From: Cliona cf. orientalis
Lineage: Eukaryota; Porifera; Demospongiae; Clionaida; Clionaidae
DNA length: 64,000 nucleotides
Direction: 5' to 3'
Assembly: GCA_963930775.1 (NCBI GenBank)
Contig: OZ005707.1
Location: forward strand, 310,001 to 374,000
Part shown: piece by piece, positions 15,674 through 64,000 of the stretch
Layout of the letters: the number at the start of each line of letters is the position of its first letter
Numbering within the stretch: the stretch's first letter is position 1
Translations under genes and position numbers: made by a program
Notes under the pieces: generated by a model
The model's database searches: none
Told to the model about the DNA's origin: nothing
What the model saw: only the letters and a program-made list of their open reading frames with translations

Positions 15674-15704
<31 letters not shown>

Positions 15705-26428: not shown

Positions 26429-29400
26429 ATGATGGAAGTGAAGCAGAGGACATCCATCGATACATTCATCTTTATTTCCATAATTGGCGTGGTTACTTTA
26501 TATGGTGAGTGGAGGAAGATTGAGTAGTACTGAAGGGTTGATTTTGAGGTGAATTTTTGAGGTGAATTTTTATACTGAGGGGACATGGTAGTGAATAACA
26601 AGCATTGATGGGGTAGCTCATCCAGGGTGTGGAGGAATTATTAGCTATCAGATAATCTGTTTTATAGGGTAAAATGGGGATTTTATAGCATAAAATCATT
26701 ATGATTTCACAAATTATGATAATCCTCAGTATAATTATAGCAATAATTAAATTTTTTGCGGTTATTATGATGAAACCTATGGTGTAATCTATGAGGTAAC
26801 TATGAGAAAATTCAGGGCCTCGATGGAGCCCTTCTGGTACTTGAAATTCAGTGAATATGTACATGTAGAGTAGCTTACAAGCAGTATGTTTCCTTCCCTG
26901 ACGAGCAGCAACGGCTGAACTTTCTAGGCTGACGTAATCCCATGGATATATAGATATAGCCCTGATGAATATGATTGAGTTCTCAAATTTCCTGCTCTAT
27001 ATTATCTTAAATAATAATTGAAGTGCATTTAGGCATAAAGCAGTTACTGTAGCTATAAGAGTGTGAAATTCAGTGCGGACTGTGATTATCTGAAAGGTCA
27101 TAGATATACAATGACATGAAATTTGATTGTCAGTGTAGCGCTATAGCTATAATAATTATTATAATATTATTACAAGTATAAAAAACAATGAAATTGAAGG
27201 ATGAAGTAGGGATGGGAGGGCCAAAAAGTACATAAACAAGATTTATAGGGATAATCATGTCCACTATACATCCCTACGCTTGCTTTTCTCGATTATCTTG
27301 TGCCTGTTGACGGTGATTCGTAGGTCATTGCTGCCAGGTTAATTTATTCCTGTACCTACTCAAAAAGCAAGCGTAGGGATGTATAGTGGACATGATTATC
27401 CTTACAAATCTTGTTTATGTACTTTTTGGCCCTCCCATCCCTACTTCATCCTTCAATTTCATTGTTTTTTATATGTGTTTCTGTTCTTTTTTATTTCTCT
27501 TTATATAATTAGTGCAATTCATCAATGCTATCTATCAATGATGTTATTATTAACTCTTCATTTTCAATGGTGTAGTGGCATAATAATAAACTATGTACGT
27601 ATCCATACCCTGGATGATGAGCCAAAGTTGCATGTGCGAGTCGTTGCCAGGCCCCTCACTAGGTCGTCGTTTATATACTGTACCGCGGCCACACTCCGCA
27701 TAGGTGAACTCTAGATCTCGGCATATAAACAGTCAGCTCAGTAACTATAGCCTTGTTCCCAGGCCCAGAGAAGCTGCTGTCAACAATAAACTTACTAGTT
27801 TTACAAAAGATTCGCTCCCTAAGTTTTCATGGCCTATAGCGATAGCATGTTCTCAGGCTAGGCTTATAGTTCTGTCAGGTCCGCGGTCGTGTGCCCCCAC
27901 GTGATCGATGTGGTGGCGTGCGGTGCCAGCGCCAATAAACTCCTGTCACATGACTTCACCATGGTAACATATTATGAGCATGCGCATTATATGACAAAAT
28001 GGCGTATAAGACACACCCAATCGTAGACAGCACTGACCAAACCCACCATTACGTATAGCTACATAATTGTCATATTATATGCATGATAATACAAAGACAC
28101 TTCACTGCACGCTACAAAATGGAATGGATTTATATGAGAACTAAGGTGAGCGGTCCAGAGAGTCTTGAGTTAGTCCTAGTAATGAAAAAGAAGTAAAGAA
28201 TGACAATTGGCTATTTTTTTACACAGCTGGTTCAGGCATACCTGATCATTTCCATGGATGTGTGGGGTCTTGATAGATAGGTATTCTGGCGTAGATCATG
28301 AATATGAAAGTTAAAAATCTTAAAATCTAAGTTGCTTTGAGTTATTAACGTTTTTGTAATGTATTACATACATGGCATATCTGGGCCATCCATACTTAAA
28401 GAGTCTACTGACTCTATGATAAAAATCCAATGATCAGCAAATACGTATACACAGCCAGTGATGCAAAATAAGATCATGGTGATGTCATACAGATGCATGC
28501 TGCATGTATGTCATGTGTGATCAGCTATAATGCACGCCATGCCATAGCGGTAATGATATCATCACGGGAAACCACAAAACCTGAATAGGTATACACTTGT
28601 CATCAGTGAGTGGCATACCATCTGATCAAATGTATAATGGCAGTGAAAACTTTCAGATCTACTGCTGAAGGCTCTCCAATGTTTTCAACCACATAGTACC
28701 AATTATTGTTAAGCCTTTTACCTAATGTAGAGCATACCAGCAGAGTATGAGTATAATTCACTCTGTGCAGCAGGGCTAGCCTCATCCCCAGGACACTCAT
28801 GCGTAGGCATAGGAAGATGATTTGGTAAATGGGTGCTCTGATGCCTATGCATGTGTACACTAATTTAAATCGATATAACATATATAAAAACACTTCAGAG
28901 CAAAATGTTACTTAGTGTGTGTTCCACTCAGAAATTTCATGGGTGCACCCATGCTTCCTACACCAGTATCATCATGATGATCAATTGTAATGTTATACAC
29001 AGAAAGTTAGAATGAGCATCCATGCATGCAGTGAAGCACAGTACACGAGGATCCTTAATAAGCTAACTGAATATCTTTTAGTGGTGTATACCACACTGAG
29101 GATGCTTGTATCTGCAGTGGCAAAGGGTCCGGCTCAGACTGTTAATTAACACATACTTTTAATGTGTTTTGTGGGCGTATAATTTGTAACTATAATTTTT
29201 GTATCAAATAACCATAATAGTACTAGGCTGGTGTCCAGGTGTGAAATGTGTAATCAGACAAAGTAGGAAATACAATATCAGTTACGTCTAGTGTGTGCAT
29301 TCTCCACCATGATAGTGATCGCTTATGTGACTATATACGATTAAATTTAGTATCAGCTAATCTAGATATTTATTAGCCAGTAATAAAAATTAGTGGATTT

Positions 29401-32400
29401 ACCGTTTCAGTGCGAGGTCAGGAACCGGTAGTGTGCAGAGCCAGTTTCAACTGTGCTGGTGGACCAGGTGATGATCTAGGAGAGGCAGAGGATGGGGCAG
29501 GCTGCTGTCTGGGCAACCCAAGTTCTCTGGCCTATAATCCACCAGGCACCGAGGACTGTTTTGCTTGTATTGGTGAGTTCTAGTAGGCCAGACCTTCTCT
29601 GAGACAGTGGGTGATAATCATTCTCGCATGAAAATTCAGTTGTTGGATTCATTAATCCCTCATTCTCTGGTCTGGAGCAGGGACCTGGTCACTCTGTGCC
29701 AGTGGGCTACCTGAAAGGTGGTACAATAGCTGGACAAAACTTGGTGTTTGATGTCAGAAATACACCAGGCACTGCAAGTGAGTTCATAATCTATAGTAAA
29801 AAAACTCTGGGACCCGAAATTCAATGTGTCTCTGAGATACAGGCCAATACAAATTTTATGGTCATTGATTTGAAATTGTTTAAATTTATTGCTGATGGTG
29901 TACACAACCAAGATGACGCTTGTGCGTGGTAGTGGTGGTGGTGGTGGTGGGGGGGGGGGGGGGGGAGGGGAGGGGGGAGACCATGGAGGCCATACCTCCC
30001 CTCATGTTTCAGAGCTGGTTTTGCACCCAAGTCAAAAGTTTCTCTCCTTCTCAATGATTATTCTGTATCACTGTTCCTTCAAGTCTGTCGTGTCTCACAA
30101 TCACGTTTGCTACTGATTAGTCGATGTAGCTAAACCATTTTGCTGCACCATGCAGTCTCCACATACACAGACCTTTTCCCTTGAGCTGATCTAGCCATGG
30201 ATTTATGGCTAGTAATATCCAAGCAGACTTCCACGTGCAGATAATGTAAATCACCATAATTATAATGGGCTCTCTAAGAGTGTTATTGCTCCATAACTGC
30301 ATGGGCTACACCAACTTCAAAATTATAGAATTTGTTGTCAATTACAGGAGAAGGTTCCCAGTTTGATTATACAGTGAATACTTTGAGAACGAGGGCTTTA
30401 GCTAATGGCCAGATTTCAAATGTGGTGCTGACCTTCCGTGTGGATTCTATTGCTCAAGAACCCAACGAGACATTCACTCTTACACTGGATCCACTTGTTG
30501 CACCAAATCCAAGAGTGGGGTTGTTTTTCCGAAACTCCATTCAAGTGACAATTAGAGACAGTGACAGTAAGGAGAATATAATACTTGTAAACGCATTCAT
30601 AGTTAGAGTTAAGATCTGGGAGTATATGAACACATGCATTAGATATTGATGGTATTCCATGTCCTCTCTTTCTTAACAGATGTTGAATTCGCCATTACTG
30701 AACCTGATTTTCGAGCCAATGAGCCTGACTCATCTAATCCTACCACATTCCAACCTGTTTTAGTGTCCAAGTCTGCACAAATTGCTTCTCGAGTTGAACT
30801 AGTGGTTGTTCCTTTAACAGTTCAGGACGCTAGAGCCACATCTCTTCCCCTTCCTCCAAATATCCCTGATGATGACCCAAGGTCTCCACCCTTTGCAGGT
30901 AGGACAATAATTAAAATTTTGAGTACGCAGATGAATGCATGATGTCATCATAAATCTTGTCCAGATTTGGCTGACTTCAACAACACTAACATCACCCTTG
31001 TCTTTGAGCCTGATGAGGATGGAGAGGTCAATGAAAAGAGTGCTCCTATTTTTGTTACTGATGATGCTATCAATGAAGCAACTGAACAAGTATTTGTTGT
31101 AGAGCTGATACTTGTGAGCAGTTTAGACTCTGCCACAGTTGATCTCTCTGTACGACCATCAACTCTGTGCAGGATCATTGATAATGATCGTAAGTTTGAA
31201 TCAGAGTGTTATTACTGTTATATATGAGACCAACCTATCATATCATTGATACCGGTCACTATATTATAGCAATCAGGATTGGATTTGAGCTGCCTGGCTA
31301 CACATACACAGAGCCTCAATTGGATGAATTCATAGATCAATTTTATGTATCACCAACTGGTCGACCTGAAAATGGACCTGTCTTTCTGATCAAAGAAGAT
31401 AATGTAACTTCAGAACAGACTTTTCTGGTTTCTTTCCAAGTCATAGATTCAGCTCCTTCTGGCACTCAGTCAGCTGCTATTGACCAAGATTATCGCTTTG
31501 CAGGGGAAGGTCGAACAAGTCAAACTGAAATTTTCCCCCCCTCCCAACAGAGGATTCCTTTTCCATTTGAGTTACGTGGAAATACTCTCCCTGAAGGAAC
31601 TGAAGCATTTCAGGCTAGTGTATCTCCTGAAGATACTCGAGACATTGGTGGCGGGATAGTAGAGCAGTTTCCAACTTCCCTCAATCCTTTAACTTTGAGA
31701 TCTGACATCTTTATTACCATTTTAGACAATGATCGTAAGTTATAAACTCATTGTAATGTTTTTCATGTTATGTTATAATATTATTATTCTTTCCTGCATG
31801 TTTAGCTATTATCATTGGATTTACCATAACAAGCTACATTGTTATTGAAGATATTGGAACTCTGCAAGTTGATGTCCGAGTTCTCAATCCTCCTAATGAT
31901 CAGCCTCTACCAGCTTCTGCAGATCTTGTCATTCAATCAGTGTCTGGATCAGCAAGTAAGTGCACAGAGCCAGTGGATCTCAAAGTATTGATGTTTTATA
32001 ATATTAATATTCATTAGCTGGAGGAAGCGACTATCAGGAGATTATTGCACTAAACCTTGATGTATTCCTGATCTTTAATGATGCAAATCGCCAACAATCA
32101 TTTGATGTGACCATCATAGATGATACAATTTTTGAGGCTGATGAGAATTTCGCATTGGAGCTGAGATTTGATCCATTTGCACTTGAACCACCACCTTCAA
32201 ATGTAATACTCTGTCCAAATACCACCGCTGTTGATATCATAGATAATGAAGGTATCAAAACTATTCCAATTAGCCTGAAAGCATAATATATAATGCTATA
32301 ACAATAGCCCTTGAAGTGGTGATAGGCTTCTTGAATACTTCCTACACTGTGAACAAGGATGATGGTTTAGTGAATATCCAAGTTGGAATCATAAATGAGG

Positions 32401-35400
32401 GAGTACTAAATACTTCAGTGGAAATCATCTTCTTTATCAGCCAAAATCAGTCAGACAGGGGTAAGTCAAACATATGCGTATAGAAATGGTGAAGAAGTGT
32501 TGTCTTACTAATAATTATTTTTAGACAGTCTGAGGACTGATACTTTGGAATTTAATCCTACCACACCCATCATTGACCTTTCTGTGGCCATCACTGATTA
32601 TCTCCCTGAGTTCTCTGGATCAGTTGTGGCTAACATTAATTTCATGGGAGAACCAACTTCTGGAGTCACTTTGGATCCAGCTAACGCCTTGATAAATATT
32701 AATGGTTTGTTTACAATATTGCAAAAAAACTGATAATTTTGGAATGACAAGATGTAATCTATAGACCTTTGCTAAATTAATTTGGGTCAAAAGTCGACTA
32801 TCTCAAGAGTTGTTACTGGTATGAAAATGAACATGTTTTTGAGCAATATTATTAATTACCATAACAAGTTTGCAATTTTTTGTGGATGCACTACTGATAT
32901 CTTGATGAAGCATTTTTCTCCTAGGTTTATATTAATTATTTGTTTCAGCCATAGAAACAAATGATTCTCTGCAGACAACTTATAAAAACTGTGTTAAACT
33001 TGCTTACATTTCTACTAGATGCATCCTAAATGTATACATGCTTTGAGAATTTGACTTGCTCTTAATTAGGGTCTATAGCCATTTGCAAAATTACATGCAG
33101 CTCTTATCATTGGATTCAATAGCACAAACTACTTTGTGCGTGAAAGTGCTCAAAATGTTACGCTTGCCATACAAGTGAGAGGAGGGGTAAACCAGTGCAA
33201 TGAAACGGAATGGATGCTCGACTATGTCATACGAAATACTTCCTCTCAATGTATGTGAGCTCTTAATGCAGAGCTTTATAGCTGTATGGTGAATCTGTCA
33301 GTGAATGTTATTGCAGCTCCAGGGACAGTCTATGTGAATAACACATCACAGTCAATATTAGTGATACCACTGATTATGGTCGATGACAACACACTTAATT
33401 TAAACAAGATTTTACAAGTTGAAATCAGCCTGCAGAACCGTGAAGATAGGAACTGTGTCCTACTGCAGCCAAATGTAGCTAATATTACAATCATGGATGA
33501 TGATGGTGAGATTATGAAGATAAAGATGACGTTATAATTATTGTGGTGATCAATTCTCTGGTTTTAGTTGTTTTCATTGATGTGGTTTCTGATATTGACA
33601 CCATTACTGAGGGAGAGGAGAGATACTTCAATCTAACTGCTGAAATACGTTCAGATGGAGGACAGCTGGGAGTAGATGTGGTAGCAGAAATCTCTATCTG
33701 TGAAGGAAGCACTGCAAAGAGTAACGTTTTATAATTATACATGAATATCCATCCTTTGACGTGTATGCAATCTCCATTGTACTTGTCAGGTGGATCAGAT
33801 TTCGTGATAAACAGTGGTCTGTCACAAGTTGTCACCTTTAGTCCGGAAGCGAGAGTTCATTCACTCTCCATTAACATTACAATTGTTGATGATGATGTTT
33901 ATGAAGGTGATGAGATTCTTTGTGTCAGTTTGTCTACCAGCACAACCAACTTGGTGGATTTTAATCCAGCTTCTTTGACAATTGAAGAAAATGATAGTAA
34001 GACTATTGTATTGTTGTATTGTATCACTATAACAATTAATTACCATGCAATAGACATCACCATCGGGTTTAACAGCACTACTTATACCGTGACAGAGAGA
34101 GATTCCAGGGTGGCGTTATGTATCAGAGTAATAAGTGGAGAATTCGATGACACTGCAACTGTCAATGTTAGGTTGAACACAGTCAGCGGAACAGCAGACT
34201 GTAAGCAAATTAATAGATAGTAATGTACATAGCTAGCTAACTTTTCTTCTTCTCCCAGCTTCGGATTATGAAGATGAGATGGTGACGTTAACATTCTCTG
34301 GTGGAAGGAGAATGCGAACAGTGAACTTAAACCTCATTGATGATAATGCACTAGAGACTGATGAAACATTCACAGCTGTACTCGAACTGGTGGATAATGA
34401 CCGTACCATACTCCAACCAAGAGAAACTGAAATCTCAATTGTTCTAGATGATGATAGTAAGCATATTGGAGTAGTTTATCATTAAGCTTAATCTATAATG
34501 ATAATTATTGTACAGGGGTTGTGATTGGCTTTACTGAAGAGAACCATACTGTTTCTGAGGGTGTGGGTATGTTCACTGATATCATTGTTGGTCTGATTGA
34601 AGGAGAACTGGGGCAGGAGGTGGTGGTAACTGTCAGCACGCAAACTGGCACAGCAAAGGGTAAGTTCATCTTATACTATCATCATAGTGTTGTTACATTT
34701 ACCAGTTTCATAACAATTAATATTATAGGTGGAGAGGACTTTGATATGATAACCGACCATGAGCTTACATTTAGTCCAGGTGTGACTTTCCTCCCTGTCC
34801 CAATAAATATTACATCTGATGGTGACTTTGAAAAAACTGAGAATTTTTCAGTTATTTTGTCTGTCCGAGATTTTTCCTTGCAACTAAATATTGGCACAGC
34901 AGTCAACTTGAAACAGAAATTGTGCCAGGACAAAACTATCTTCAGCAGTGATAGTCGGCGTAATGATGAACCAATCAGCATTGACTTGAACAGAGTGTTT
35001 GTGTCTCAGGCTGAGAGTGGTATTTCTTTCAATCTTGCTGCTAACGAGAGTGAACGTGTTGGAGTTAGCCCGGCAAGGGCAAGTGTAACCATCAATGATA
35101 GTGACAGTAAGTTTAGTTTGTCTAATCAGTATCATAATTGCTAGATAGTAACCAACATCCGGAGTCCAGAACACCATGTGGCATCCAAATTACATAAGAG
35201 AAGTGTTCAAACTTACCCCTGAAATGGGGATACCCCTTTAATTAAGATGCTTAGGTACACATTCTGCTGTAATTAATAGAATTGCATTGTTTTGCCTGCA
35301 GCTGTCAGTATTGGATTCAGTATGTCCTCATATTCTGTGAATGAGTGCGAAAGTCAAGTAAGCGTAGTTGTTGTCGTCAAAGGCTCACTTAAGAGAACAA

Positions 35401-38400
35401 TAGCTCTTCATTTAAACACAAGTGATCTAACTGCTAATGGTAAGCTAATGGTCTCATGAGCAGACATGTAAACAATATTATTGTATATTATTTTCTTTTA
35501 ATAGCTGGTGTGAACTACGGAGAAGTGACCAACTATTTACTGATTTTTGACTCTGAAACGGAGAGAGAACGCACAGTGAATATTTCGATAAATGCCACCG
35601 ATGAAACTATCCTTGAAGTGGATGAAGAGTTCATAGTGACTCTTTTTTTTCCAGAATCTGAGCAACCTATTCCACGAGTGACATTGGAACCAGATAATGC
35701 TACCATTGCCATCCATGAAATCAACGGCCAAAGTATGTAAAATTATAATTATGGTTGCTAGTTTAATAATAATACTTACTTTATGGATCAGTTGGATTCA
35801 TACCTGATACTGAGACTGATATGATAGTGACCGGACCTCCAGCAAGCATCGTGAAGGTGGTTGATGAGGATGTTGGAAGAGTGAATCTGACTGTTGGATT
35901 GGAGGGAAGTATTTGTGGCGAAATAGAAATTGAGTTTCAAATTTCTAGCAACCACTCATTTACTGCAACAAATGGTACAATGCTTAATTAGAATACAGTA
36001 GAACCTGGATCCCACCCCCCTTTGAGGCAGCTTAAATGAATTCAATATCTTGACAAAACTAGGTGTTCATGTTTTAGAGGGGTTCCACTATAATAACTTA
36101 CATTCTGAATTAATTTTGTGTGTTTTTATCACAGGTGAAGACTACACTATAGCAATGGAGCGCCGTCTGATACTAAGCACTGAATCTCCGAATGCTACAA
36201 TCACAATTGACATCGTCGATGATGGTTTCTTTGAGCTGGATGAATCTTTCCTGGTATCTCTATCTTTCAAAGACCAGATAATGATCCCCAGGGTGACTCT
36301 GGATCCAAGATTTGCTAATATAACAATTCGAGGTATATATGAAGTTGAAGGCTGTCATACGATGCATAAATTGAATATCCTCTCACAAATATTGAAATTT
36401 ATAAGCGTCCATATAATAAAGAAAAGTCACTAAGTCTTATAAAATTATCTGTATAGCTGTTTTTTTTTTTATTATTGTATGTTTAGCTTCAGATCCACTG
36501 CCAGAGATACCACCAGCAGCCCCAATGCAATCAACAGACATAGCAACGATCATCGGTGGTACTCTGGGAGCTATTGCTGTTCTCATTATCTCTGGTATCA
36601 TACTGCTGATCATTTTCCTTTTACAGTTTAACAAGCGAACAGCTCAGAGTCTGAAACTGTGAGTATAAGTATTATAACAATCAATAATATTATAGGACTA
36701 CCATGCATTCACGTAAAATTAATGGATGCACACATACAGTGGTGAAGGAACTGGTCTACAAAATATGGCGGTAAATAGTTATTAAAATGTTAGACAGTAT
36801 TGGTACCATTATTATTGTATATTTTCTTCAAGGGTTTTTCTGTTCAGAGCTCCTATAAGCTCACACTACCACCGCACCTTACCGTCCATGCCACCAACAT
36901 CAAAATGACTGAGACTATCGGACAAGGCAAGCTTTAATAATTTTTGCACAAAAAAGTTATTATTAATCAATGGACATTTTAGGGGAATTTGGTGTGGTTT
37001 ACAAAGGACATCTTTTGGAGGATGGAGGAAATATAGTTACCGCAACTGTGGCAATTAAAACCCTAAAAGGTTAACTGAGCTTAACTGCTGGTTCATTAGT
37101 AGTATAACTGTTTCTTCAATCAATGCTTCTTGGTTTGTTATTCAGGATTCTATGATAGTGCTACTATCAGGGATATGCTGAAGGAATGCTCCAAAATGAG
37201 CAAGTTTGATCACCCAAACGTTCTCACTCTGAACGGTGTTTGTTTGGATGGAGGGCCAGCCCCTTTCATTATCATGCCTTTCATGACAAATGGCAGTCTC
37301 CTGGCTTATCTGACAAAGAATAGAGCAACACTGGTCATTGAGTCCGGTAACAGTCAGGACGACAATGAAGTACGTAATGACTACTAAGAGTTTTGAGCAG
37401 AGCATGCATGATTAAAAATGCACTAAATCACCTCATGTAGGAGAATGTTCGTAAGCGGCTGATGGACATGTGTCTTCAGGTGGCCAGAGGAATGGAGTAC
37501 CTTGCCAAGATGAAGGTGGTGCACAGGGACTTGGCAGCAAGAAACTGCATGTAAGTTTTGACACAATCATGTAAAATTTGATGGTATACTATCGTAAGCA
37601 TGATACTTAAACTTAAACATCCTATCTATATAATAATTATGCCACCATAATGTACTCAGGATTGACATGAACTATGTTATTAAAGTTGCTGATTTTGGAC
37701 TTGCCGAAAGTGTTGGGACGAATGATTACTTTCGTCAAGACAAATTTGTGGCTGTCAAACTTCCACTGAAGTGGCTGGCCCCTGAAAGTTTAGAGGACTA
37801 CATCTTTTCTGAGAAAACTGACGTGGTATGTCTACTAATTTTGTTACTAATAAAATTAATGCATTCATTTATCTCTACACACTAGTGGGCATATGGTGTG
37901 ACAAGTTGGGAGATCTTTACAGCAGGGAAGGTACCCTATACAACTGTCAACCTCAATGATCTTCCTAACAAGCTTCACAACGGATATCGTCTGGAAAAGC
38001 CCTTCAATGAGGCCTGTGACAGTGAAATGTGAGCAATAACTATCAAGTTAATGCAAGTCACCATTTGTAGATCCTCCCTTCATAGCTGGGGCCTTGGGAT
38101 CATGTTCTTGGTGTTACAGCAAGCAGCTGAACTGCATAATTATCGTGTCAGAGCATCCTATTCCATATCAGTAGACTAAGTGATAGCATTATTAACATGA
38201 TTCAAAGCTATTTTTAAATATTCTGACAGGTACATGCTCATGCAGCATTGCTGGGAGCTGGACCCTAAGAGCCGACCAAGCTTCTCTGATCTGGTCAGCT
38301 CCCTCTCACAGTCTCTGGAAGCCATGGCTGGTTACATGGATGTCGGTGCCTTTGGACAATTGCAAGTCTGTGAATCAGCATTGGAGATTGAACCTGGAGA

Positions 38401-38485
38401 AATTGAGGAGCAAAGGGTACCAGCTGAGAAAGAGAGTGAAGAAGATGAAGTTGTGGATGTGAAATCTGAAGAAACGCGTATGTAA
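26429..38485 (+). CDS. Calx-beta receptor tyrosine kinase, copy A
   Basis: Single-pass receptor of 1,938 residues in 32 exons. Order: signal peptide ([17 protein letters not shown]), a six-cysteine module (26-79, ending CFACIG), 11 Calx-beta-like domains (to ~1511), a short Pro/Thr stalk, a transmembrane helix (~1534-1557, [20 protein letters not shown]), a juxtamembrane segment and a tyrosine kinase (~1602-1925). Catalytic residues are present: glycine loop GQGEFG (1609-1614), VAIK lysine 1636, HRDLAARN Asp 1744, DFG Asp 1762, [10 protein letters not shown]. The LAARN form and FDHPNVL...GVC...IIMPFM hinge fit receptor kinases near the Met/Axl group. A short acidic tail follows. The ectodomain would bind an extracellular ligand, possibly with Ca2+; the ligand is unknown. 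Nearest relatives are copies B and C downstream. All junction phases agree. Confidence 0.9.
27177..27474. mobile_element. Palindromic MITE family M1, copy 1 (~298 bp)
   Basis: Arms of about 110 bp are near-perfect inverted copies, starting TATAAAAAACAATG and including GCAAGCGTAGGGATGTATAG near the centre. A second member is at 57016-57392. It lies in intron 1 of receptor A, in a ~1.27-kb segment (about 27150-28420) that copy B lacks. No coding capacity. Confidence 0.8.
27905..28430. repeat. Dispersed repeat R2, copy 1 (~0.5 kb)
   Basis: Matches 56035-56525 as an inverted copy. Shared landmarks (given in the 56-kb orientation): TCATAGAGTC...GTAGACTCT, GATGGCCC...ATATGCCAT, AATGGTGGGT, GTGTGTCT...ATACGCCATTTT, and GCCATGGTGAAGTCATGTGA. 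It includes an E-box-like CACATGAC and an X-box-like ACCATGGTAAC. No open frame or terminal inverted repeats found. Confidence 0.7.
29935..29974. repeat. (GGT)n and G run in intron 3 of receptor A
   Basis: A short GTGGTG repeat runs into 17 G at 29949-29965 and further G-rich bases. The matching intron of copy B (around 43545) has only a remnant (GGTGGTAGTAG). Confidence 0.85.
35995..36094. mobile_element. Short TIR element in intron 22 of receptor A
   Basis: Begins CAGTAGAACCTGGATCC and ends GAGGGGTTCCACTA, giving ~10-bp inverted ends of the kind seen in small pogo/Tc1-like MITEs. Remnants lie at the same place in copies B (49863-49955) and C (about 62012-62105), so it entered before the duplication. 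Confidence 0.5.
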
Positions 38486-38931
38486 GGGAAATCGTTAGCA
38501 GCTGAATAAAGACCTATACCTGTGACACCAGTAGCTACACGTATATCAAAATATTATTATTATTACTCTCTATAATAATTTCATGCATAAAAATGAATAC
38601 AAATGTACGTACGTGTTTATGTTTGGTCTGCGATTTCTGTCATTTGCGCGTCTGCGAATAGTACGGTAAAGGGTCGGCACATCCTGTGTGTATGCAAATG
38701 GTAATGGTCGCCCCAACAGGATAAGGTCACTCATTTGTTATTATTGCACGATTTGTGGCTCGTGAATATCGAATAGTGTGGCGCCTTTACGTATACAGGA
38801 AGAGGAAAGTGCGCTACATATAGCAGGCATGGATGTATCACCAGACTATGGTTGACTCCCTGACGCGGTGACATCTGTTGCCTAATTGAACTTGAATTTT
38901 TCCTTTTGTCACAAGCTGTGAGGGCCAGTAG
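38486..38931. other. Spacer between receptor A and the next leader exon
   Basis: A polyadenylation signal AATAAA lies at 38505-38510, only 20 bp after the stop of A; copy B has AATAAG at that place. The rest, nearly identical to 52404-52842, should include the promoter for the leader exon at 38974. It contains an ACAGGAAGAGG (ETS-like) motif near 38798 and no coding exon. Confidence 0.6.
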
Positions 38932-38973
38932 CTATCGCTGAACTCAGGCCGGCAGTCCCCAGTGCTAAGCAAC
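38932..38973 (+). promoter_or_regulatory. Conserved 5' leader before the first alternative exon of receptor B
   Basis: CGCTGAACTCAGGCCGGCAG followed by TCCCCAGTGCTAAGCAAC leads into the ATG at 38974. It matches the block before the other leader exons, in the version with GGCC rather than GGTC. Confidence 0.5.
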
Positions 38974-39040
38974 ATGATGGAAATGAAGCAGATAGATATA
39001 TTCATCTTTATTTTCATCATTGGCGTGGTTACTTTATGCG
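38974..39040 (+). CDS. Alternative first exon of receptor B (leader type 1)
   Basis: Codes for a signal peptide ([20 protein letters not shown], then LCG) and ends in a phase-1 donor, G|GTAAGC, which joins in frame to the six-Cys exon at 43031. It closely matches the single leader exon of copy C (52885-52954). A second leader of the other type follows at 40743, so receptor B has two possible first exons, 1.8 kb apart. Use of both is inference. Confidence 0.6.
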
Positions 39041-39099
39041 GTAAGCATAATAGTACTAGTATTATACTGTCATGCTACCGATAAAAAATTTAATGAAGA

Positions 39100-40742: not shown

Positions 40743-43700
40743 ATGGAAGTGAAGCAGAGGACATCCATCGATACATTCATCTTTATTTCCATAATTGGCG
40801 TGGTTACTTTATATGGTGAGTGGAGGAAGGTTGAGTAGTGCTGAAGGGTCGATTTTGAGGTGAATTTTTGAGGTGAATTTTTATACTGAGGGGACATGGT
40901 AGCGAATAACAAGCATTGATGGGGGTAGCTCATCCAGGGTGTGGAGGAGTTATTATCAGTTTTATAGGGTAAAATGGGCATTTTGATTAGTTTTATAGCA
41001 GAAAATGATTGATTAGTATTGATGATGATTTCACATAATCCTCAGTAGTTTTTTTGCGATTATTAGGTAATTATGTTATAGTTAATACTTATAGCACGGA
41101 GCCAGGGATTTATGGCAGTAAACCGACCGAGTCCGAGGGCGTAGCCCTCAAGGCCCAAATTATGAGATTTATTGTCCAGCCAATTCTATTGCAAAGGTAT
41201 AGGAGGTGGGATATATGAATAATTATGATGAAACCTATGGTATAATCTATGAGGTAATTATGAGAAAATTCAGGGCCTCGATGGAGCCCTTGTTCTGGGA
41301 CTTGAAATTCAGTGAATATGTAGAGTATCTTGCGTGTGTATCCAGCGACTACCTTACAAGCAGCGTGTTGCCTTCTCTGACGAGCAGCAACGGCTGAACT
41401 TTCTAGGCTGACGTAATCCCATGGATATATTATATAGATAGCCCTGATGAATATGATTGAGTCCTCAAATTTCCTACTCTATATTTATCTTAAATAATAA
41501 TTGAAGTGATGGTTGATCACCTAGGTACAAAGCAGTAGCTAAGAGTATGAAATTCAGTGCCGACTGTGATTATCTGAAAGTTCATAGATATGTAATGACA
41601 TGAAATTTGATTGTCAGCGTAGTGCTAGCTAGATTATATCCAATGATCAGCAAAATTAATACGTATAATATATACACAGCCAGTGATGCAAACTAAGATC
41701 ATGGTGATGTCATACAGATGCATTCTGCATGTATGTCATGTGTGATCAGCTATAATGCACGCCATGCCATAGCGGCAATGATATCATCATAGGAAACCAC
41801 AAAACCTGAATAGGTATACACTTGAATGGTGAATGCCATCCATAGGTGGCGGAACCCATAGGCCTTTGGGGCTGAAGCCCCCCCCCCTCCCCCCCAATAT
41901 TTGAGCCCCATAATAGCTTTTTGATGACTATATTATTACAGAAAAATAATTATTGACAATAGATAGCTAAATACATCAATATACCTACAAAAGCTGCCTA
42001 GAATAAGTTCAAGAATCGATCTTAGTGCACGTTTTCATGGTTTTCCACCATTTCTTTGTTTCTGATAACCGATAGCCCCGTATGATCTTTGAACTTCAAT
42101 TAAGTGGGTGTGGCCCTAAAATTTATCGCGCACACTTTGTGTGCAATCATTAGTATTAGCTCCCCCGAACAAAAGTTACTTCCATCGCCTATGCCATCAA
42201 ATGTATAATGGTAATTAAAACTGTCAGATCTATTACTAAAGGCTCTCCAATGTTTTCAACCACATAGTACCAATTATTGTTGAGCCTTTTACGTACCTAA
42301 CAAAATTAATGTAGAGCATACTAGCAAAGTATGAGCAGTTCACTCTGTGCAGCAGGGCTAGCCTCGTCCCCAGGCCACTCATGCATAGGCGTAGGAAGAT
42401 GATTTGGTAAATGGGTGCTCTGATGCCTATGTCTACACTAAATCGATAACATATATAAAAACACTTCAGAGCAAAGTGTGTGTTCCACTCAGAAATTTCA
42501 CGGGTACACCCATGCTTCCTACGCCAGTGTCATGATCAATTGCAATGTTATACACAGAAAGTTAAAATGAACATCCATGCATGCAGTGAAGTACGCATAG
42601 TACACGAGGATCGATCCTTAATAAGCTAACTGAATATCTTTTGTGATGTATACCACACCGAGGATGCTTGTATCTGCAGCAGCAAAGGGTCCGGCTCAGA
42701 CTGTTAATTAACACATACTTTTAATGTATTTTGTGGGCGTATAATTTGTAACTATAATTTTTATACTCGAGTCAAATAACCATAATATTATAATAGTACT
42801 TGGCTGGTGTCCAGGTGTGAAATGTGTAATCAGGCGAAGTAGGAAATACAATATCAGTAATCTACATTTGTTAATTATTTTTTACGTTTAGTGTGTGCAT
42901 TCTCCACCATAGTGATAGCTTATGTGACTATATACAATTAAATTTTATCAACTAATATAATTATTGTAGATATTTATTAGCCATTCAAGATCTGACAGTA
43001 ATAATAAAATAAGTGAATTTACCGTTTCAGTGAGAGGTCAGGTAGTATGCAGAGCCAGTTTCAACTGTACTGGTGGGCCAGGTGATGATCTAGGAGTGGC
43101 AGTGGATGGGGCGGGCTGCTGTCTGGGCAACCCAAATGCTCTGGCTTATACTCCCCAGGACAGTGAGGTCTGTATTGCTTGTATTGGTGAGTTCTAGTAG
43201 GCCAGACCTTCTCTGAGACAGTGGGTGATAATTTTCTCATTCTCACATGAAAATTCAGTTGTTGGATTCATCAATCCTTCATTCACTGGGTTTGAGCAGG
43301 GACCTGGTCACTCTGTGCCAGTGGGCTACCTGAAAGGTGGTACAATAGCTGGACAAAACTTGGTGTTTGATGTCAGAAATACACCAGGCACTGCAAGTGA
43401 GTTCATAATCTATAGTAAAAAAATTCTGAGATCCGAAATTAATGTGTCTCTGAGATACACACCAATACAAATTTATGATCATTGATTCGAAATTTAATTT
43501 TACTAATGGTGTACACAACCAAGATGACACCTGGCCGTGCATGGTGGTAGTAGACCATGGAGGCCATACCTCCCCTCATGTTTTCAGAGCTGGTTTTGCA
43601 CTAAGTTAACACCCAAGTCAAAAGTTTCTCTCCTTTTCAATGATTATTCTGTATCACTGTTCCTTCAAGTCCGTCATGTCACAATCTCATTTGCTACTCA

Positions 43701-46700: not shown

Positions 46701-49700
46701 GATGAAGCATTTTTCTAGGTTTTTGTTGATTAGTTATTTCAGCCACAGAAATAAAATTAATGAAGATTCTCTGCAAACATAATAAATCAGCATGCTGTAG
46801 TGGTTGCATCACCTGTTGGCATTATTCAACATTAATTTTATGATCAAATTATCTGTCACCATAAATACATGTCATGCCTTTGAAAATTTGACTTCCTCTT
46901 AATTAGGGTCTATAACCAAATTTTAAATTACATGCAGCTCTTATCATTGGATTCAATAGCACAAACTACTATATGCCTGAAGGTACTCAAAATGTTACAC
47001 TTGCCATAAAAGTGAGAGGAGGGGTAAACCAGTGCAATGAAACAGAGTGGATGCTCGACTATGTCATACGAAACATATCCTCTCAACGTATGTGAGCAGA
47101 GCTTCAGTATAGCTGTATGGTGAATCTGAATGTTATTGCAGCTTCAGGAGATAACATTGACACTGGGACAGTCTATGTGAATCATACATCACAATCAATA
47201 TTAGTGATACCACTGATTACGGTTGATGACAACACACTTAATTTAAATAAGATTTTACAAGTTGAAATCAGCCTACAGAACCGTGAAGATAGGAACTGTG
47301 TTCTACTGCAACCAAGTGTAGCTAATATTACAATCACGGATGATGATGGTGAGATTATGAAGATGAAGATGACAATATAATTATTGTGGTGATCAATTAT
47401 GGTTTTAGTTGTTTTCATTGATGTGCACGTGGTTTCTGATATTGACACCATTACTGAGGGAGAGGAGAGGTACTTCAATCTAACTGCTGAAATACTTGCA
47501 GATGTCGGAGGACAGCTGGGAATAGAGGTGGTAACAGGAATCTTTATCAGTCCAGGAAGCACTGCAAAGAGTAACTTCTTATAATTATGCATGAATATCG
47601 ATCCTTTGATGTGTATGCAATCTCCTGTCAGGTGGATCAGATTTTCTAATAAACGGCGGTCAGCCACTAGTTTTTACCTTTGGTCCGGAAGTTAGAGTTC
47701 ATTCATTCTCTATTACAATTATTGATGACAATATTTTTGAACCTGATGAGATGCTTCTTATCAGTTTGTCTACCAATACAACTAACTTCGTGGATTTTGA
47801 TTTTGCTATTTTGACAATTGAAGATGATGATAGTAAGACCGAGGCTATTATTATAGTATTGTATCACTATGACATTGGATTGCCCATGCAACAGACATCA
47901 CCATCGGATTTAACAGCACTACTTACACTGTGAGAGAGAGTGATTCCAGAGTGGCATTATGTATCGGCTTAATAAGTGGAGAATTTGATGACACTGCAAC
48001 TGTCAATGTTAGGTTGAATACAGTCAGTGGAACAGCAGACTGTAAGCAAATTAATAGATAGTAATGTACATAGCTAGCTACATCAGTTGACTTTTCTTCT
48101 CCCAGCTTCGGATTATGAAGATGAAACAGTGAGATTAGCATTCTCTGGTGGAAGGAGAATGCAAACAGTGAACTTGAACATCATTGACGATAATGCACTA
48201 GAGACTGATGAAACATTCACAGCTGTACTTGAACTGGTGGGTAATGACCGTGTCATGCTCCAACCAAGAGAAACTGAAATCTCAATTGTTTTGGATGATG
48301 ATAGTAAGCATATTGGAGTAGTTTATTATTAAGCTTAATCTATAATAATAATTATTGTACAGGGGTTGTGATTGGCTTTACTGAAGAAAACCATGCTGTT
48401 TCTGAGGGTGAGGGTATGTTCAATATCACTATTGGTCTGATTGAAGGGGAACTGGGGCAGGAGGTGGTGGCAACTGTCAGCACGCAAACTGGCACGGCAA
48501 AGGGTAAGTTCATCTTATGTTCTTTGCAGCAATACTATATATCATCATAGTGTTGTTACATTTACCAGTTTCATAACAATTAATATTATAGGTGGAGAGG
48601 ACTTTGATATGATAACTGACCATGAGCTTACATTTAGCCCTGGTGTGACTTTCCTCCCTGTCCCAATAAATATTACATCTGATGGTGACTTTGAAGAAAC
48701 TGAGAGTTTTTCAGTTATTTTGTCTATCCGAGATTTTTTCTTGCAACTAAATATTGGCACAGCAGTCAACTTGAAACAGGAATTGTGCCAGGACAAAACA
48801 ATCTTCAGCAGTGATAGTCGGCGTAATGATGAACCAATCAGCATTGACTTGAACAGAGTGTTTGTGTCTCAAGCTGGAAATGGTATTTCTTTCTATCTTG
48901 CTGCTAACGAGAGCGAGCGTGTTGGAGTTAGCCCGGCAAGGACAAGTGTAACCATCAATGATAGTGACAGTAAGTTTGGTTTGTTTAATCAGTATCATAA
49001 TAGCTACCAACATCCCCCCTAACCAGGAGTCCAGGACACCATATGACATCCAAATTACATAAGAGAAGTGTTCAAACTTACCCCTGAAATGGGGATACCC
49101 CTTTAATTAAGATGCTTAGGTACACATTCTGCTGTAATTAATAGAATTGCATTGTTTTGCCCGCAGCCATCAGTATTGGATTCAGTATGTCCTCATATCC
49201 TGTGAGCAAGTGCGAAAGTCAAGTAAGCATAGTTGTTGTCGTCAAAGGCTCACTTAAGAGAACAATAGCTCTTCATTTAAACACAAGTGATCTAACTGCT
49301 AATGGTAAGCAAATGGTCTCTTGAGCAGACATATACACAATATTATTGTAATATTATTTTCTTTTAATAGCTGGTGTGAACTACGGAGAATTGACCAACT
49401 ATTTACTGATTTTTGACTCTGAAACGGAGAGAGAACGCACAGTGAATATTGCGATAAATGCCACCAATGAAACTAACCTTGAAGTGGGTGAAGTGTTCAA
49501 AGTGACTCTTTCTTTTCCAGAATCTGAAGAACCCATTCCACGAGTGACATTGGAACCAGACAATGCTACCGTTGCCATCCATGAAAACAACGGACAAAGT
49601 ATATAAAATTCTCATTATGGTTACTAGTTTACTATTAATACATACTTTATGGATCAGTTGGATTCATACCTGATACTGAGACTGATATGATAGTGACTGG

Positions 49701-52403
49701 AACTCCAGCAAGCATTGTGAAGGTGGTGGATGAGGATGTTGGAGCAGTGAATCTGACTGTTGGATTGATGGGAAGCATTTGTGGCGAAATAGAAATTGAG
49801 TTTCAAGTTTCTAATAACCATTCATTTACTGCAACAGACGGTACAGTGCTTAATAATTCAGAATACAGTAGAACCTACATTAATCCCACCCCCCCTTAGG
49901 CAGCTTAAGTGAATATCTTAGGTGTCCATGTTTTAGAGGGGTTCCACTTCATGTAATAATAACCTACATTCTGAATTATTTTTATTTATCACAGGTGAAG
50001 ACTACACTATAGAGATGGAGCGCCGTCTGATACTAAGCACTGAATCTCCAAATGCTACGATCACAATTGACATCATCAATGATAACCAGTCTGAGCCCAA
50101 TGAATCCTTCCAGGTATCTCTATCTTTCAAAGGCCAGCCTAGGGTGACTCTGGATCCAAGATTTGCTAACATAACAATTCGAGGTATGAAGTTGAAGGCT
50201 GTCATACGATGCATAAATTGAATATCCTCTCACAAATTTTGAAATTTAATAGCACCCATAACGAAAAATCACTAAGTCTTATAAAATTATCAGGAATAAC
50301 TGCTTTTTTGTTGTATGTTTAACTTCAGATCCACTGCCAGAGACACCAACGACCCCAATGCAATCAACGGACACAGCAGCACTGCCAACGACCTCAGTGC
50401 AATCAGCAGATACAGCAGCACCGCCAATGGCCCCAATGCAATCAACAGATACGGCAGCGATCATCGGTGGTACCCTGGGTGCTATTGCTATTCTCATTAT
50501 CTCTGGTATCATACTGCTGATCATTTTTCTTGTACAGTTTAACAAGCGTACAGCTCGGAGTCTAACGAAACTGTGAGTATAAGTATTATAACAATCAATA
50601 TATAGCACTACCATGCATTCATGTAAAATTAATGGATGCACACATACAGTGGTGAAGGAACTGGTCTACAAAATATGGCGGTAAATAATTATTGAAATGT
50701 TAGACAGTATTGGTACTATTATTATTGTATATTTTCTTCAAGGGTTTTAGTGTTCAGAGCTCCTATAAGCTCACGCTACCACCGCACCTTACCATCAATG
50801 CCACCAACATCAAAATGACTGAGACTATTGGACAAGGCAAGCTTTAATAATTTTTGCACAAAAAAGTTATTATTAATCAATGGACATGTGTTTTAGGAGA
50901 ATTTGGTGTGGTTTACAAAGGACATCTTTTGGAGGATGGAGGAAACATAGTTACTGCAACTGTGGCAATTAAAACCCTAAAAGGTTAACTGAGCTTAACT
51001 GCTGGTTCATTAGTAGTATAACTGATTCTTCAATCAATGCTTCTTGGTTTGTTGTGCAGGATTCTATGATAGCGCTACTATCAGGGATATGTTGAAGGAA
51101 TGCTCCAAAATGAGCAAGTTTGATCACCCAAACGTTCTCACTCTGAATGGCGTTTGCTTGGATGGAGGGCCAGCCCCTTTCATTATCATGCCTTTCATGA
51201 TAAATGGCAGTCTCCTGGCTTACCTCACAAAGAATAGAGCAACGCTGGTCATTGAGTCTGGTAACAGTCAGGACGACAATAAAGTATTTAATCTATAGCT
51301 ATTAAGAGTTTGAGCAGTGCATATATACATGGTTAAAACTGCACCACATGCAGGAGAATGTTCGTAAGCAGCTGATGGACATGTGTCTTCAGGTGGCCAG
51401 AGGAATGGAGTACCTTGCCAAGATGAAGGTGGTGCACAGAGACTTGGCAGCAAGAAACTGCATGTAAGTTTTGACACAATCATGTAAAATTAAATGGTAC
51501 TGTCATAAGCATGATACTCAGTAAACTTAAACATCCTGTCTATATAATAATTATGCCACCATAATGTACTCAGGATTGACATGAACTATGTTATTAAAGT
51601 TGCTGATTTTGGACTTGCCGAAAGTGTTGGGACGAAGGATTACTTTCGTCAAGACAAGTCTGCAGCTGTCAAACTTCCTCTGAAGTGGTTGGCCCCCGAA
51701 AGCTTAGAGGACTACATCTTTTCTGAGAAAACTGATGTGGTATGTCTACTAATTTAAAATTAATATGATACATTATTTGTCTCTACACATTAGTGGGCAT
51801 ATGGTGTGACATGTTGGGAGATTTTCACAGCAGGGAAGGTACCCTATACAACTGTCAACCTCAATGATCTTCCTAACAAGCTTCACAACGGATATCGTCT
51901 GGAAAAGCCCATAAATGAGGCCTGTGACAGTGAAATGTGAGCAATAACTATCAAGTTAATGCAAGTCACCATTTGTAGATCCTCCCTTCGTAGCTGGGGC
52001 CTTGGGATCATGGTTGACAAGGTTCTGGGTGTTACAGCAAGCAGCTGAACTGCATAATTATCATGTCAGAGCATCCTATTCCATATCAGTAGACTAAGTG
52101 ATAGCATTATTAACATGATTCAAAGCTATTTTTAAATATTCTGACAGGTACATGCTCATGCAGCATTGCTGGGAGTTGGACCCTAAGAGCCGACCTAGCT
52201 TCTCTGATCTGGTCAGCTCCCTCTCACAGTCTCTGGAAGCCATGGCTGGTTACATGGATGTCGGTCCCTTTGGACAATTGCAAGTCCGTGAATCAGCATT
52301 GGAGATTGAACCCGGAGAAATTGAGGAGCAAAGGCTACCAGCTGAGAAAGAGAGTGAAGAAGATGAAGTTGTGGATGTGAAATCTGAAGAAACAAGTATG
52401 TAA
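40743..52403 (+). CDS. Calx-beta receptor tyrosine kinase, copy B
   Basis: Same plan as copy A: about 1,956 residues with the leader exon 40743-40815 or 1,954 with 38974-39040. Six-Cys module (ending CIACIG), 11 Calx-beta-like domains, stalk, membrane helix ([20 protein letters not shown]) and kinase with [29 protein letters not shown] and [10 protein letters not shown] intact. The stalk is the main length difference from A: three copies of a Q-S-[TA]-D-T-A-A unit against one. At exon 24 the acceptor TTAG used by A and C reads TTAA, so splicing must use CTTCAG eight bases further in, still in frame. The leader choice, the 18-bp longer exon 13 and two element insertions (introns 1 and 6) also set it apart. 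Kinase sequence is nearly identical to A. Confidence 0.9.
41841..42193. mobile_element. TIR element with 5-bp target duplication (353 bp)
   Basis: Starts CATAGGTGGCGGAA and ends TTCCATCGCCTATG, imperfect inverted ends, flanked on both sides by CCATC. The matching intron of copy A (near 28600) lacks it, so it inserted after the duplication. It contains a C-rich run (41879-41897) and no open frame. Confidence 0.75.
44846..45102. mobile_element. MITE with TAAGCCCCGTTTACAC termini (257 bp)
   Basis: Inverted ends TAAGCCCCGTTTACAC and GTGTAAACGGGGCTTA. It lies in intron 6 of receptor B; the same intron of A (31190-31269) lacks it. Inside, GACCCGAGTTAAG occurs twice. A TA target duplication is likely. 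No coding capacity. Confidence 0.8.
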
Positions 52404-52842
52404 GGGAAACCGTTACTGAATAAGGACCTATCCGTGACACCAGTAGCTACATGTATATCAAAATATTATTATTATTAGTCTCTATAATAATTTCATGCAT
52501 AAAAATGAATACAAATGTACGTACGTGTTTATGTTTGGTCTGCGATTTCTGTCATTTGCGCGTCTGCGAATAGTACGGTAAAGGGTCGGCATATCCTGTG
52601 TGTATGCAAATGGTAATGGTCGCCCCAACAGGATAAGGTCACTCATTTATATTATATTATTTGTGGCTCGGTGAATAGTGTGGCGCCTTTACGTATACAG
52701 GAAGAGGAAAGTGCGCTACATATAGCAGGCATGCATGTATCACCAGACTATGGTTGACTCCCTGACGCGGTGACATCTATTGCCTAATTGAATTGAATTT
52801 TTCCTTTTGTCACAAGCTGTGAGGGCCGGCCAGTAGCTATCG
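52404..52842. other. Spacer between receptors B and C
   Basis: Near-copy of 38486-38931, with AATAAG where A has AATAAA, the same ACAGGAAGAGG motif (near 52697), and no coding exon. It should carry the promoter of receptor C. Confidence 0.6.
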
Positions 52843-52884
52843 CTGAACTCATCTGCAGGCCGGCAGTCCCCAGTGCTAAGCAAC
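52843..52884 (+). promoter_or_regulatory. Conserved 5' leader of receptor C
   Basis: CGCTGAACTCATCTGCAGGC, then CGGCAGTCCCCAGTGCTAAG, before the ATG at 52885. Compared with 38932-38973 it has a small insertion (ATCTGC) inside the block. Confidence 0.5.
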
Positions 52885-61800: not shown

Positions 61801-64000
61801 CAGTTGGATTCATACTTGATACTGAGACAGTGACTGGACCTCCAGCAAGCATCGTGAAGGTGGTGGATGAGGATGTTGGAACAGTGAATCTGACTGTTGG
61901 ATTGGAGGGAAGCATTTGTGGCGAAATAGAAATTGAGTTTCAAGTTTCTAACAACCGCTCATTAAATTTTACTGCAACAGACGGTACAATACTTAAAAGA
62001 TGATGAATTATAATTACCTGGACCCCTTGAGGCAGCTTAAATGAATGAACATCTTGACAAACTAGGTGTCCATATTTCATATCCTTATGGAGGGATTCCA
62101 CTCTAATAATAACTTACATTCTGAATTTGTGTGCTTTTATCACAGGTGAAGAGTACATTATAGCAATGGAGCGCCGTCTGATACTAAGCACTGAATCTCC
62201 ACATGCTACTATCACAATTGACATCATCAATGATAACCAGCCTGAGCCCAATGAATCCTTCCTGGTATCTCTATCTTTCAAAGACCAGATGATGATCCCC
62301 AGGGTGACGCTGGATCCAAGATTTGCTAACATAACAATTCGAGGTATGAGGTTGAAGGCTATCATACGATGCATAAATTGAATAAATTTAATAATTGAGG
62401 CAAGATTTGAAGTTTAAAAGTGCCCATGAGGAAAAGTCACTAAGTCTTATAAATCACCAGGAGTATATATGTGTAACTGTTTTGTTTTTTTTTTGTATAT
62501 GTTTAGCTTCAGATCCACCAACAACAGCCCCAGTGCAATCAACAGACACAGTAGCATCACCAATGGCCCCAGTGCAATCAACAGACACAACAGCGCCGAT
62601 CATCGGTGGTACTCTGGGAGCTATATCTGCTCTCCTTATCTCTGGTATCGTACTGCTGGTCATTTTTCTCTTGTGGTTTAACAAGCGAGCAGCCTTAAAG
62701 AAACTGTGAGGATATTAATCACACAATATTCAATGCTGCCATTGATTTTGGGTAACATTAATGCATGCACACATGTACATACAGCAGTGAAGGAGCAGAA
62801 GATGCAATTGGTTTACATAGGGCGGTAAATTTAAATATTATTATATACTATAGTATTGGTACTATCCTCATTAATTTTTTTTAATGTGCGTCATCTTTAA
62901 GGATTTTAGTGTTCAGAGCTCCTATAAACTCAAACTACCACCCCACCATATTGTTCATGCCAACAACCTCAAAATGACTGAGACTATTGGACAAGGCAAG
63001 CTTAACTTTTGCACAAAATAAGCGAATAATCATTACTTCATTGTTCAGGGGAATTTGGTGTGGTTTACAAAGGACATCTTTTGGAGGATGGGGGGAAGAT
63101 AGTTACCGCAACTGTGGCAATAAAAACTCTAAAAGGTTGATTACTGATTCATTAGCAGTATAATAATTTTAACTCACTCAAACTTTAATTAATTCATGCA
63201 GGATTCTATGATAGTGCTACTATCAGGGATATGCTGAAGGAATGCTCAAAAATGTGCGAATTTGATCACCCAAATGTTCTCGCTCTGAACGGTGTTTGTT
63301 TGGATGGAGGGCCAGCCCCTTTCATTATCATGCCTTTCATGATAAATGGCAGTCTCCTGGCTTACCTCAGGAAGAATAGAGCAACGTTGGTCATAGAGTC
63401 TGGTAATAGACAGCCTGAGGATGACAACGAAGTAAGACTTTTAATACGGTGGCAATAATAATGTTATTATGGTGAAAAATTTATAATGCCTTGATATTAT
63501 TTGGAGTCTGTAGTCATATGAATTAGGTAAAATTATCTCATGCAGGAGAATGTTCGTAAGCAGCTGATGGACATGTGTCTTCAGGTGGCCAGAGGAATGG
63601 AGTACCTTGCCAAGATGAAGGTGGTGCACAGAGACTTGGCAGCAAGAAACTGCATGTAAGTTTGCTGATGTTTAGAATCGACTGTTCTGCGAGTCACCAT
63701 GTGCACGTGCGCAATGTTATGTACTTAGGATTGATATGAGCTATGTTATTAAAGTCGCTGATTTTGGACTTGCCGAAAGTGTTGGGACAAAGGATTACTT
63801 TCGTCAAGACAAGTCTGCAGCCGTCAAACTTCCTCTGAAGTGGTTGGCTCCCGAAAGCTTAGAGGATTACATCTTTTCCGAGAAATCTGATGTGGTATGT
63901 CTACTATATGTTTGAGTAATTCTGCTAATGCATTCTCAATTTGTCTCTGCACATTAGTGGGCATATGGTGTGACAAGTTGGGAGATTTTCACAGCAGGGA
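52885..64000 (+). CDS. Calx-beta receptor tyrosine kinase, copy C (3' end beyond window)
   Basis: Same plan as A and B: leader [20 protein letters not shown], six-Cys module (ending CTACVG), 11 Calx-beta-like domains, stalk with two V-Q-S-T-D-T units, membrane helix ([20 protein letters not shown]), then kinase with [29 protein letters not shown] and [10 protein letters not shown]. Thirty-one exons can be traced, the last cut at base 64000 inside the [14 protein letters not shown] segment. Sequence identity to A and B is uneven: exons 2-11, 19-24 and 28-30 are close, exons 12-18 are clearly diverged, and the juxtamembrane exon 25 is different and longer ([13 protein letters not shown]). Intron 1 is only 514 bp because of a deletion, while intron 6 is swollen to 2.5 kb by inserted repeats. 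Confidence 0.9.
53040..53330. mobile_element. Left arm only of the foldback element
   Basis: Matches the left arm at 39110-39385 (ATCAAGGGAAAATTTTATGC, TGTACAGCAAAGGAGG, AAAATGCTTTATGCCAAACC), then stops near 53336 and continues as sequence homologous to 42815 onward. Confidence 0.75.
55005..55525. repeat. Dispersed repeat R1, copy 2
   Basis: Same elements as at 25935-26245, with more inner sequence, including a short CGACGGACGGACGGACAGAC repeat at 55441, and the same closing CCTCCGCCTACGCTTTGCGG. It lies in intron 6 of receptor C. Confidence 0.6.
56035..56525. repeat. Dispersed repeat R2, copy 2 (inverted)
   Basis: Inverted copy of 27905-28430, interrupted by small indels. It ends near ATGTTGCCATGGTGAAGTCA. 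The GC-rich stretch that follows (56525-56730) has local GCGCTAG repeats and no counterpart at the other copy. Confidence 0.7.
57016..57392. mobile_element. Palindromic MITE family M1, copy 2 (~377 bp)
   Basis: Arms start ACAAGTATAAAAACAATTG and include GCAAGCGTAGGGATGTATAG, as in copy 1 (27177-27474), with a different centre of about 130 bp. It inserted in intron 6 of receptor C, 89 bp before exon 7. Confidence 0.8.

Follow-up and report, generated by a model that had tools for sequence, protein, structure and literature searches.

A tandem array of three genes, RTK1, RTK2, and RTK3, lies in a 64,000-nucleotide stretch of the genome of the demosponge Cliona cf. orientalis, hereafter the window (positions 310001‒374000 of contig OZ005707.1, here C19; genome of 216.8 Mb in 149 contigs). 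Each gene is predicted to encode a receptor tyrosine kinase (RTK) with Calx-beta-type modules in its ectodomain. Positions given without a contig are those of the window. Gene models were produced with a purpose-written, splice-aware Viterbi gene finder trained on regional open reading frames and its own exons. The gene finder was applied to the window joined with its flanks, GC donors were allowed, and junctions were curated by hand. In these models, the array covers positions 26429‒64000 and 609 further bases, and each gene has 31 exons. The initial annotation had placed three adjacent genes at 26429‒64000; the genes were recovered but the end was not, since the last exon of RTK3 ends at 64609, 609 bases outside the window (flank L025). 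The genes, the parts of RTK1, and one additional exon are as follows.

26429..38485, + strand: RTK1, Calx-beta receptor tyrosine kinase, 31 exons, 1922 amino acids (spliced model, Pfam)
26429..26504, + strand: RTK1 leader exon, signal-peptide-like hydrophobic segment, predicted junction to exon 2
29411..29572, + strand: RTK1 exon 2, six-cysteine (6-Cys) module, no Pfam family assigned
29640..36332, + strand: RTK1 modules M1‒M11, Calx-beta-type, exons 3‒23; M3 is a single exon (31270‒31734), the others have two exons each
36487..36658, + strand: RTK1 transmembrane exon
36850..36926, + strand: RTK1 juxtamembrane exon, terminating at a GC-AG intron within the Gly-loop
36983..38485, + strand: RTK1 kinase exons and C-terminal tail with the GYMDV tyrosine
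38974..39040, + strand: extra leader-like exon between RTK1 and RTK2, either an alternative first exon of RTK2 or a relic
40743..52403, + strand: RTK2, 31 exons, 1911 amino acids, architecture as RTK1 (spliced model, Pfam)
52885..64609 (window end at 64000), + strand: RTK3, 31 exons, 1943 amino acids, architecture as RTK1 (spliced model)

Exon anatomy, hydropathy, and Pfam bear out the architecture first proposed for the three genes: a leader, a 6-Cys module, 11 modules, one membrane helix, and a full kinase. The reading frame is continuous in all three models, and the sole stop is the terminal one. Of the 30 introns in each copy, 29 are GT-AG and one is GC-AG; the latter splits the Gly-loop of the kinase in all three copies (36927‒36982 in RTK1). 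Twenty-seven of the 30 occupy an identical alignment column in the same phase in the three copies; a displacement of a few columns is seen for introns 9 and 12, and the phase of intron 10 in RTK1 differs from that in RTK2 and RTK3. The ectodomain introns are nearly all in phase 1, and the phases are mixed from the transmembrane exon onward. A 57-base intron is present in RTK1 at 33997‒34053. Besides the leader, each RTK contains one 19-residue stretch with a mean hydropathy of 2.8‒3.2, which by hydropathy corresponds to a single transmembrane helix.

The leader is hydrophobic in all three RTKs (hydropathy 1.9‒2.4). Because a TTTCAG/TG acceptor, selected by reading the sequence, matches the leader phase in the three copies, the leader was provisionally joined to exon 2 at this site. 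The acceptors at 29377, 29381, and 29394 in RTK1, 42970‒43014 in RTK2, and 53452 in RTK3 were set aside, since TTTCAG/TG was the only phase-compatible one among the acceptors examined. An apparent loss of two cysteines from the 6-Cys module of RTK2 proved wrong; all six are kept in the three copies.

The initial annotation had suggested a domain search with Calx-beta (PF03160) and kinase profiles on the spliced proteins. When run on spliced RTK1 and RTK2, the Pfam search returned both families in each protein, with Calx-beta E-values of 1.1e-103 and 2.3e-98, respectively. The whole-protein Calx-beta score of RTK1 is 342 bits, against a curated cut-off of 27. At E ≤ 0.01, no Pfam families other than Calx-beta and the kinase were found in RTK1, RTK2 additionally gave a sub-threshold match to DUF4843, and the 6-Cys module received no Pfam name.

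Exon anatomy yields 11 modules per copy, the number that had been described as Calx-beta-like from the start; the Calx-beta assignment itself is uneven among them. Seven of the 11 RTK1 modules exceed the Calx-beta cut-off, M4, M6, M7, M9, M10, and M11 as single modules and M8 as the best-scoring stretch when the whole protein was searched. M1 (13.9 bits) and M2 (21.3 bits) fall below the cut-off, and M3 and M5 gave no Pfam match when scanned singly. In a profile comparison against the strong modules, M1 reached 93% and M5 97%, and M3 reached 92% with an 11-sequence alignment and 11% with the three copies alone, whereas reversed controls reached at most 2.1%. On the strength of these profile matches and the Pfam scores, a Calx-beta-type assignment is well supported for ten modules and probable for M2. 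The AlphaFold prediction for M3 (single exon, 11 relatives) had a mean predicted local distance difference test score (pLDDT) of 35.4 and was uninformative on its fold. The best solved-structure match by sequence to M8‒M9 in the PDB is NCX1 (3e-11). Two NCX-like acidic motifs, a DDxxxxE-like one (a loose pattern in which ND was also accepted) and xDF/Y, are both present in M2, M4, M7, and M8 of all three copies, and M11 carries both with changes. We infer that Calx-beta-type modules of these receptors may bind Ca2+. The three ectodomains contain 32, 34, and 38 N-glycosylation sequons.

The kinase is matched by the Pfam family PK_Tyr_Ser-Thr over 258 of 258 positions in both proteins (1.1e-83 in RTK1 and 7.4e-85 in RTK2). 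The Gly-loop, VAIK, HRD, DFG, APE, and the SRP arginine are present in all three RTKs, as the initial annotation had read them, and the activation-loop stretch DYFRQDK and the tail tyrosine in GYMDV are likewise conserved. The nearest solved kinase domains are those of MER (219 bits), AXL (218), RON (212), and MET (about 209); an EGFR construct tops the structure list only through its two kinase copies, which score 159 bits each. Omega is 0.08‒0.10 for the kinase (bootstrap limits 0.03‒0.17) and 0.50‒0.54 for the ectodomain (bootstrap limits 0.40‒0.64). Since omega and all bootstrap limits are below 1, purifying selection acts on both parts, and much more strongly on the kinase; the omega values of the three copies show positive selection in neither part. 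Such constraint on the kinase is consistent with the earlier suggestion that the three proteins are probably active receptors.

Searching the genome with the kinase gave many relatives, and the piece covering the 6-Cys module and M1 (6-Cys/M1) matched 76 places with E-values of at most 0.1. From the kinase matches listed, 48 exons with at least 57% identity over the exon starting the kinase C-helix were picked by hand, those of the three window genes included, and weaker matches to this exon were dropped. Their surroundings were compared with the 76 6-Cys/M1 matches and with 72 Calx-beta matches, which were drawn from 165 with neighbours within dense arrays omitted (150 of 973 candidates scored). 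A Calx-beta/6-Cys relative was located at most 15 kb upstream on the same strand for 25 of the 48 kinase exons and on the opposite strand for none, compared with a mean of 0.5 and a maximum of 4 in 2000 random placements, in which the length of a contig was taken as its largest known coordinate. Because the kinase and Calx-beta matches considered cover part of the candidates, 25/48 is a lower bound. With no other family kinase intervening, the count is 22/48, or 19/45 outside the window.

Seven further loci (L029‒L035), chosen because Calx-beta/6-Cys matches adjoin a kinase there and thus not a random sample, were modelled; the models are partial and uncurated, and in some the kinase is incomplete. 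One predicted chain combines both Pfam families at six of them (L029‒L034), which are located on C1 (two), C2, C3, C5, and, at a distance from the window, C19. At L035, there is a kinase and, identified by eye only, an M1-like module. L029 (C1:15600001-15609600), a close relative, contains nine Calx-beta stretches, and its kinase has NFG instead of DFG with HRD kept, so that it is possibly a pseudokinase or an altered kinase. Within this single genome, members of one kinase family adjoin ectodomains of Calx-beta or of Calx-beta mixed with EGF. Runs of same-family kinase exons were also observed at C1:7.66-7.87 Mb and C13:1.19-1.35 Mb, and L034, a member of the C1 run, combines Calx-beta and EGF domains.

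The N-terminal cassette of the RTKs recurs on neighbouring Calx-beta proteins that have no kinase.

1852..16346, - strand: Calx-beta array protein, no kinase, 49-exon model, 3420 amino acids, no strong membrane helix, first exon uncertain
C19:180534-196748, - strand: Calx-beta protein, 52-exon model, 3501 residues, signal-like N-terminus, predicted to be secreted
C19:216497-224291, - strand: tail-type Calx-beta protein, one strong helix, no kinase, N-terminus 82% identical to that of RTK1
C19:240590-247454, - strand: tail-type Calx-beta protein, one strong helix, no kinase, N-terminus 70% identical to that of RTK1, model without the 6-Cys module

The N-terminal part of the array protein at 1852‒16346 and the RTK cassette are homologous (29% identity; the score is 100 bits, and the highest among 20 shuffles was 23.5). 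The model possibly lacks the first exon, and the protein is at most a putative aggregation factor. The cassette of the protein at C19:180534-196748 is 85% identical to that of RTK1 over 495 aligned positions, and the cassettes of RTK2 and RTK3 are 85% and 82% identical to that of RTK1. The tail-type proteins end in a short tail with YESV, YDEV, and AYCSS tyrosines, and the tail sequence occurs at 10 places in the genome, two of which were modelled. In these models, which may contain joining errors, secreted, tail-type, and kinase proteins carry versions of one cassette. The surrounding region, C19:150001-374000, is rich in Calx-beta genes on both strands over more than 200 kb, including long kinase-less arrays.

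TAM ectodomains consist of Ig and FN3 domains, and those of MET and RON of Sema-PSI-IPT. RTK1‒RTK3 resemble the TAM/MET receptors (MER, AXL, RON, and MET) in the kinase domain, the single helix, and the activation-loop tyrosine, but differ in an ectodomain of a 6-Cys module and 11 Calx-beta-type modules, and Pfam found no TAM/MET family ectodomain (Ig+FN3 or Sema) in RTK1 or RTK2. Sponge aggregation factors are secreted proteins with a Wreath domain and without a kinase. The chromosomal region of the RTKs also encodes Calx-beta array proteins without a kinase, one of them with the 85% identical cassette, whereas the RTKs possess a membrane helix and a kinase. NCX, integrin beta4, and FRAS/FREM share the Calx-beta fold with the RTKs, but have no kinase and a different topology. 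ADGRV1/VLGR1 is an adhesion G protein-coupled receptor (GPCR) with Calx-beta. The occurrence of Calx-beta on adhesion GPCR ectodomains has been described (PMC12716839); these receptors, like the RTKs, place Calx-beta on a signalling receptor, but they have seven helices and couple to G proteins. The same paper describes fusions of GPCRs with tyrosine kinases (GPCR-TKs) in sponges and choanoflagellates, which are likewise a lineage-specific joining of receptor and tyrosine kinase, but with seven helices and with Calx-beta unmentioned in the passage on them.

In a survey of holozoan tyrosine kinases, the term 'calx' is absent from the main text (PMC8662651, term search). In another paper, one figure on sponge receptors lists TyrKc and Calx-beta among its domains, the passage concerned not stating that they share a protein (PMC8242945). 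The initial annotation knew of no described receptor kinase class built on Calx-beta, and no Calx-beta RTK was reported in the papers searched, a set outside which most subscription papers and the sponge protein databases lie. Such proteins may already have been annotated automatically. By their predicted domains, RTK1‒RTK3 are receptor tyrosine kinases with a new ectodomain class. The adhesion GPCR precedent, the presence of the kinase family beside Calx-beta at other loci, and the cassette on kinase-less neighbours go beyond the initial annotation.

We consider it fairly likely that RTK1‒RTK3 are Ca2+-dependent adhesion receptor kinases of this new class whose partners are extracellular Calx-beta proteins or similar rods. 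In the proposed mechanism, a rod of 11 Calx-beta-type modules, capped by the 6-Cys module, would stand outside the cell, connected by one helix to a MER/MET-like kinase inside. Ca2+ would stiffen the rod, and the rod or the N-terminal cassette would bind extracellular Calx-beta proteins (aggregation-factor-like, encoded in this part of the chromosome) or similar rods of an adjacent cell. Binding would dimerise or cluster the receptors so that the kinases trans-phosphorylate, and the tyrosines of the activation-loop DYF and the GYMDV tail would relay the signal. Aggregation factors would be the obvious candidate ligands. Calx-beta is a Ca2+-sensing and adhesion module that in sponges forms part of aggregation factors, and a receptor kinase built on it would couple tyrosine phosphorylation directly to adhesion to the matrix, which may depend on Ca2+, in a lineage that branches near the base of the animals.

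Several observations weigh against this interpretation. In the ectodomain, M2 is the weakest module (12% in the profile comparison and 21 bits in Pfam), and both acidic motifs are absent from M1, M3, M5, and M10 in all three copies and from M6 in two of the three. The junction from the leader to exon 2 is the least certain one, and RTK2 has two candidate leaders. Among the 48 family kinases, 23 have no Calx-beta/6-Cys relative upstream, and 11 also have one downstream on the same strand, as expected of tandem arrays; EGF domains are also present at L032, L033, and L034. The candidate ligands carry reservations as well. The model of the array protein at 1852‒16346 starts without a signal peptide, calling it secreted rests on the absence of a strong helix, and its C-terminal 292 residues match no Pfam family. 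The 52-exon model at C19:180534-196748 holds two stretches with a hydropathy of about 2.0; this protein is called secreted, with reserve, because these stretches are weaker than the receptor helices (2.6‒3.2), and the model could join two genes in error.

The same receptors could instead recognize a foreign or soluble ligand, microbial or dietary, as a diversifying innate sensing family rather than as matrix or adhesion receptors, which we regard as possible but somewhat doubtful. The family is large and tandem-duplicated, its ectodomain evolves faster, and sponge Calx-beta genes altered their expression after microbial stimulation according to two studies (PMC11229196, PMC6208332). However, the ectodomain omega is still below 1 and positive selection was not seen, and a cassette common to kinase-less host proteins, one of which is predicted to be secreted, fits host ligands or homophilic binding. 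It seems improbable that the proteins serve chiefly as structural or decoy molecules in adhesion and make little use of their kinases: the replacement of DFG by NFG at L029 indicates that kinase decay may occur in the family, and kinase-less tail-type paralogues exist, but RTK1‒RTK3 retain their catalytic motifs and the kinase is their most constrained part.

The remaining alternatives concern the models and the fold. If the ectodomain and kinase belonged to two neighbouring genes, one for a Calx-beta adhesion protein and one for a kinase, they would have been fused only by the gene model, and the joining does rest on a home-made gene finder whose first run merged genes. Nevertheless, the linking exons, their phases, and the GC-AG intron are the same in all three copies, and the upstream association exceeds its random expectation (25/48, strictly 22, vs 0.5). 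Because the order of ectodomain and kinase also recurs across loci (six of the seven elsewhere, which were chosen for nearby matches), accidental joining is unlikely, and we give this explanation very little weight. It is less credible still that the repeats belong to another beta-sandwich, such as a cadherin-, Ig-, or FN3-like fold. The lack of a Pfam match for M3 and M5 and the pLDDT of 35 for M3 would permit this, but the seven modules above the Calx-beta cut-off, the profile matches of M1, M5, and M3 (the last with the 11-sequence alignment, as against 11% with three copies) set against the reversed controls, and NCX1 as the nearest solved structure to M8‒M9 all point to Calx-beta.

For the favoured adhesion receptor kinases, a wider system may be envisaged. 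Aggregation factors are Calx-beta proteins whose gene cluster is reported to govern allorecognition in demosponges, e.g., Amphimedon (PMC10815962). The Calx-beta region of C19 might encode a self-recognition or aggregation system with its own receptors, in which the RTKs would be the missing receptors for aggregation-factor signalling; we regard this extension as speculative and rather unlikely. Its members would be secreted aggregation-factor-like proteins, tail-type receptors, and Calx-beta RTKs, all with versions of the cassette. With the RTKs, there are specific candidates for the receptor that would transduce the signal in sponge cell aggregation and self-recognition.

Two other genes were noticed by eye in the window.

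22148..25796, + strand: filamin-like gene upstream of the array, with several calponin-homology-like segments and filamin-like repeats (model)
1..1622, + strand: 3' part of a beta-galactosidase-like gene

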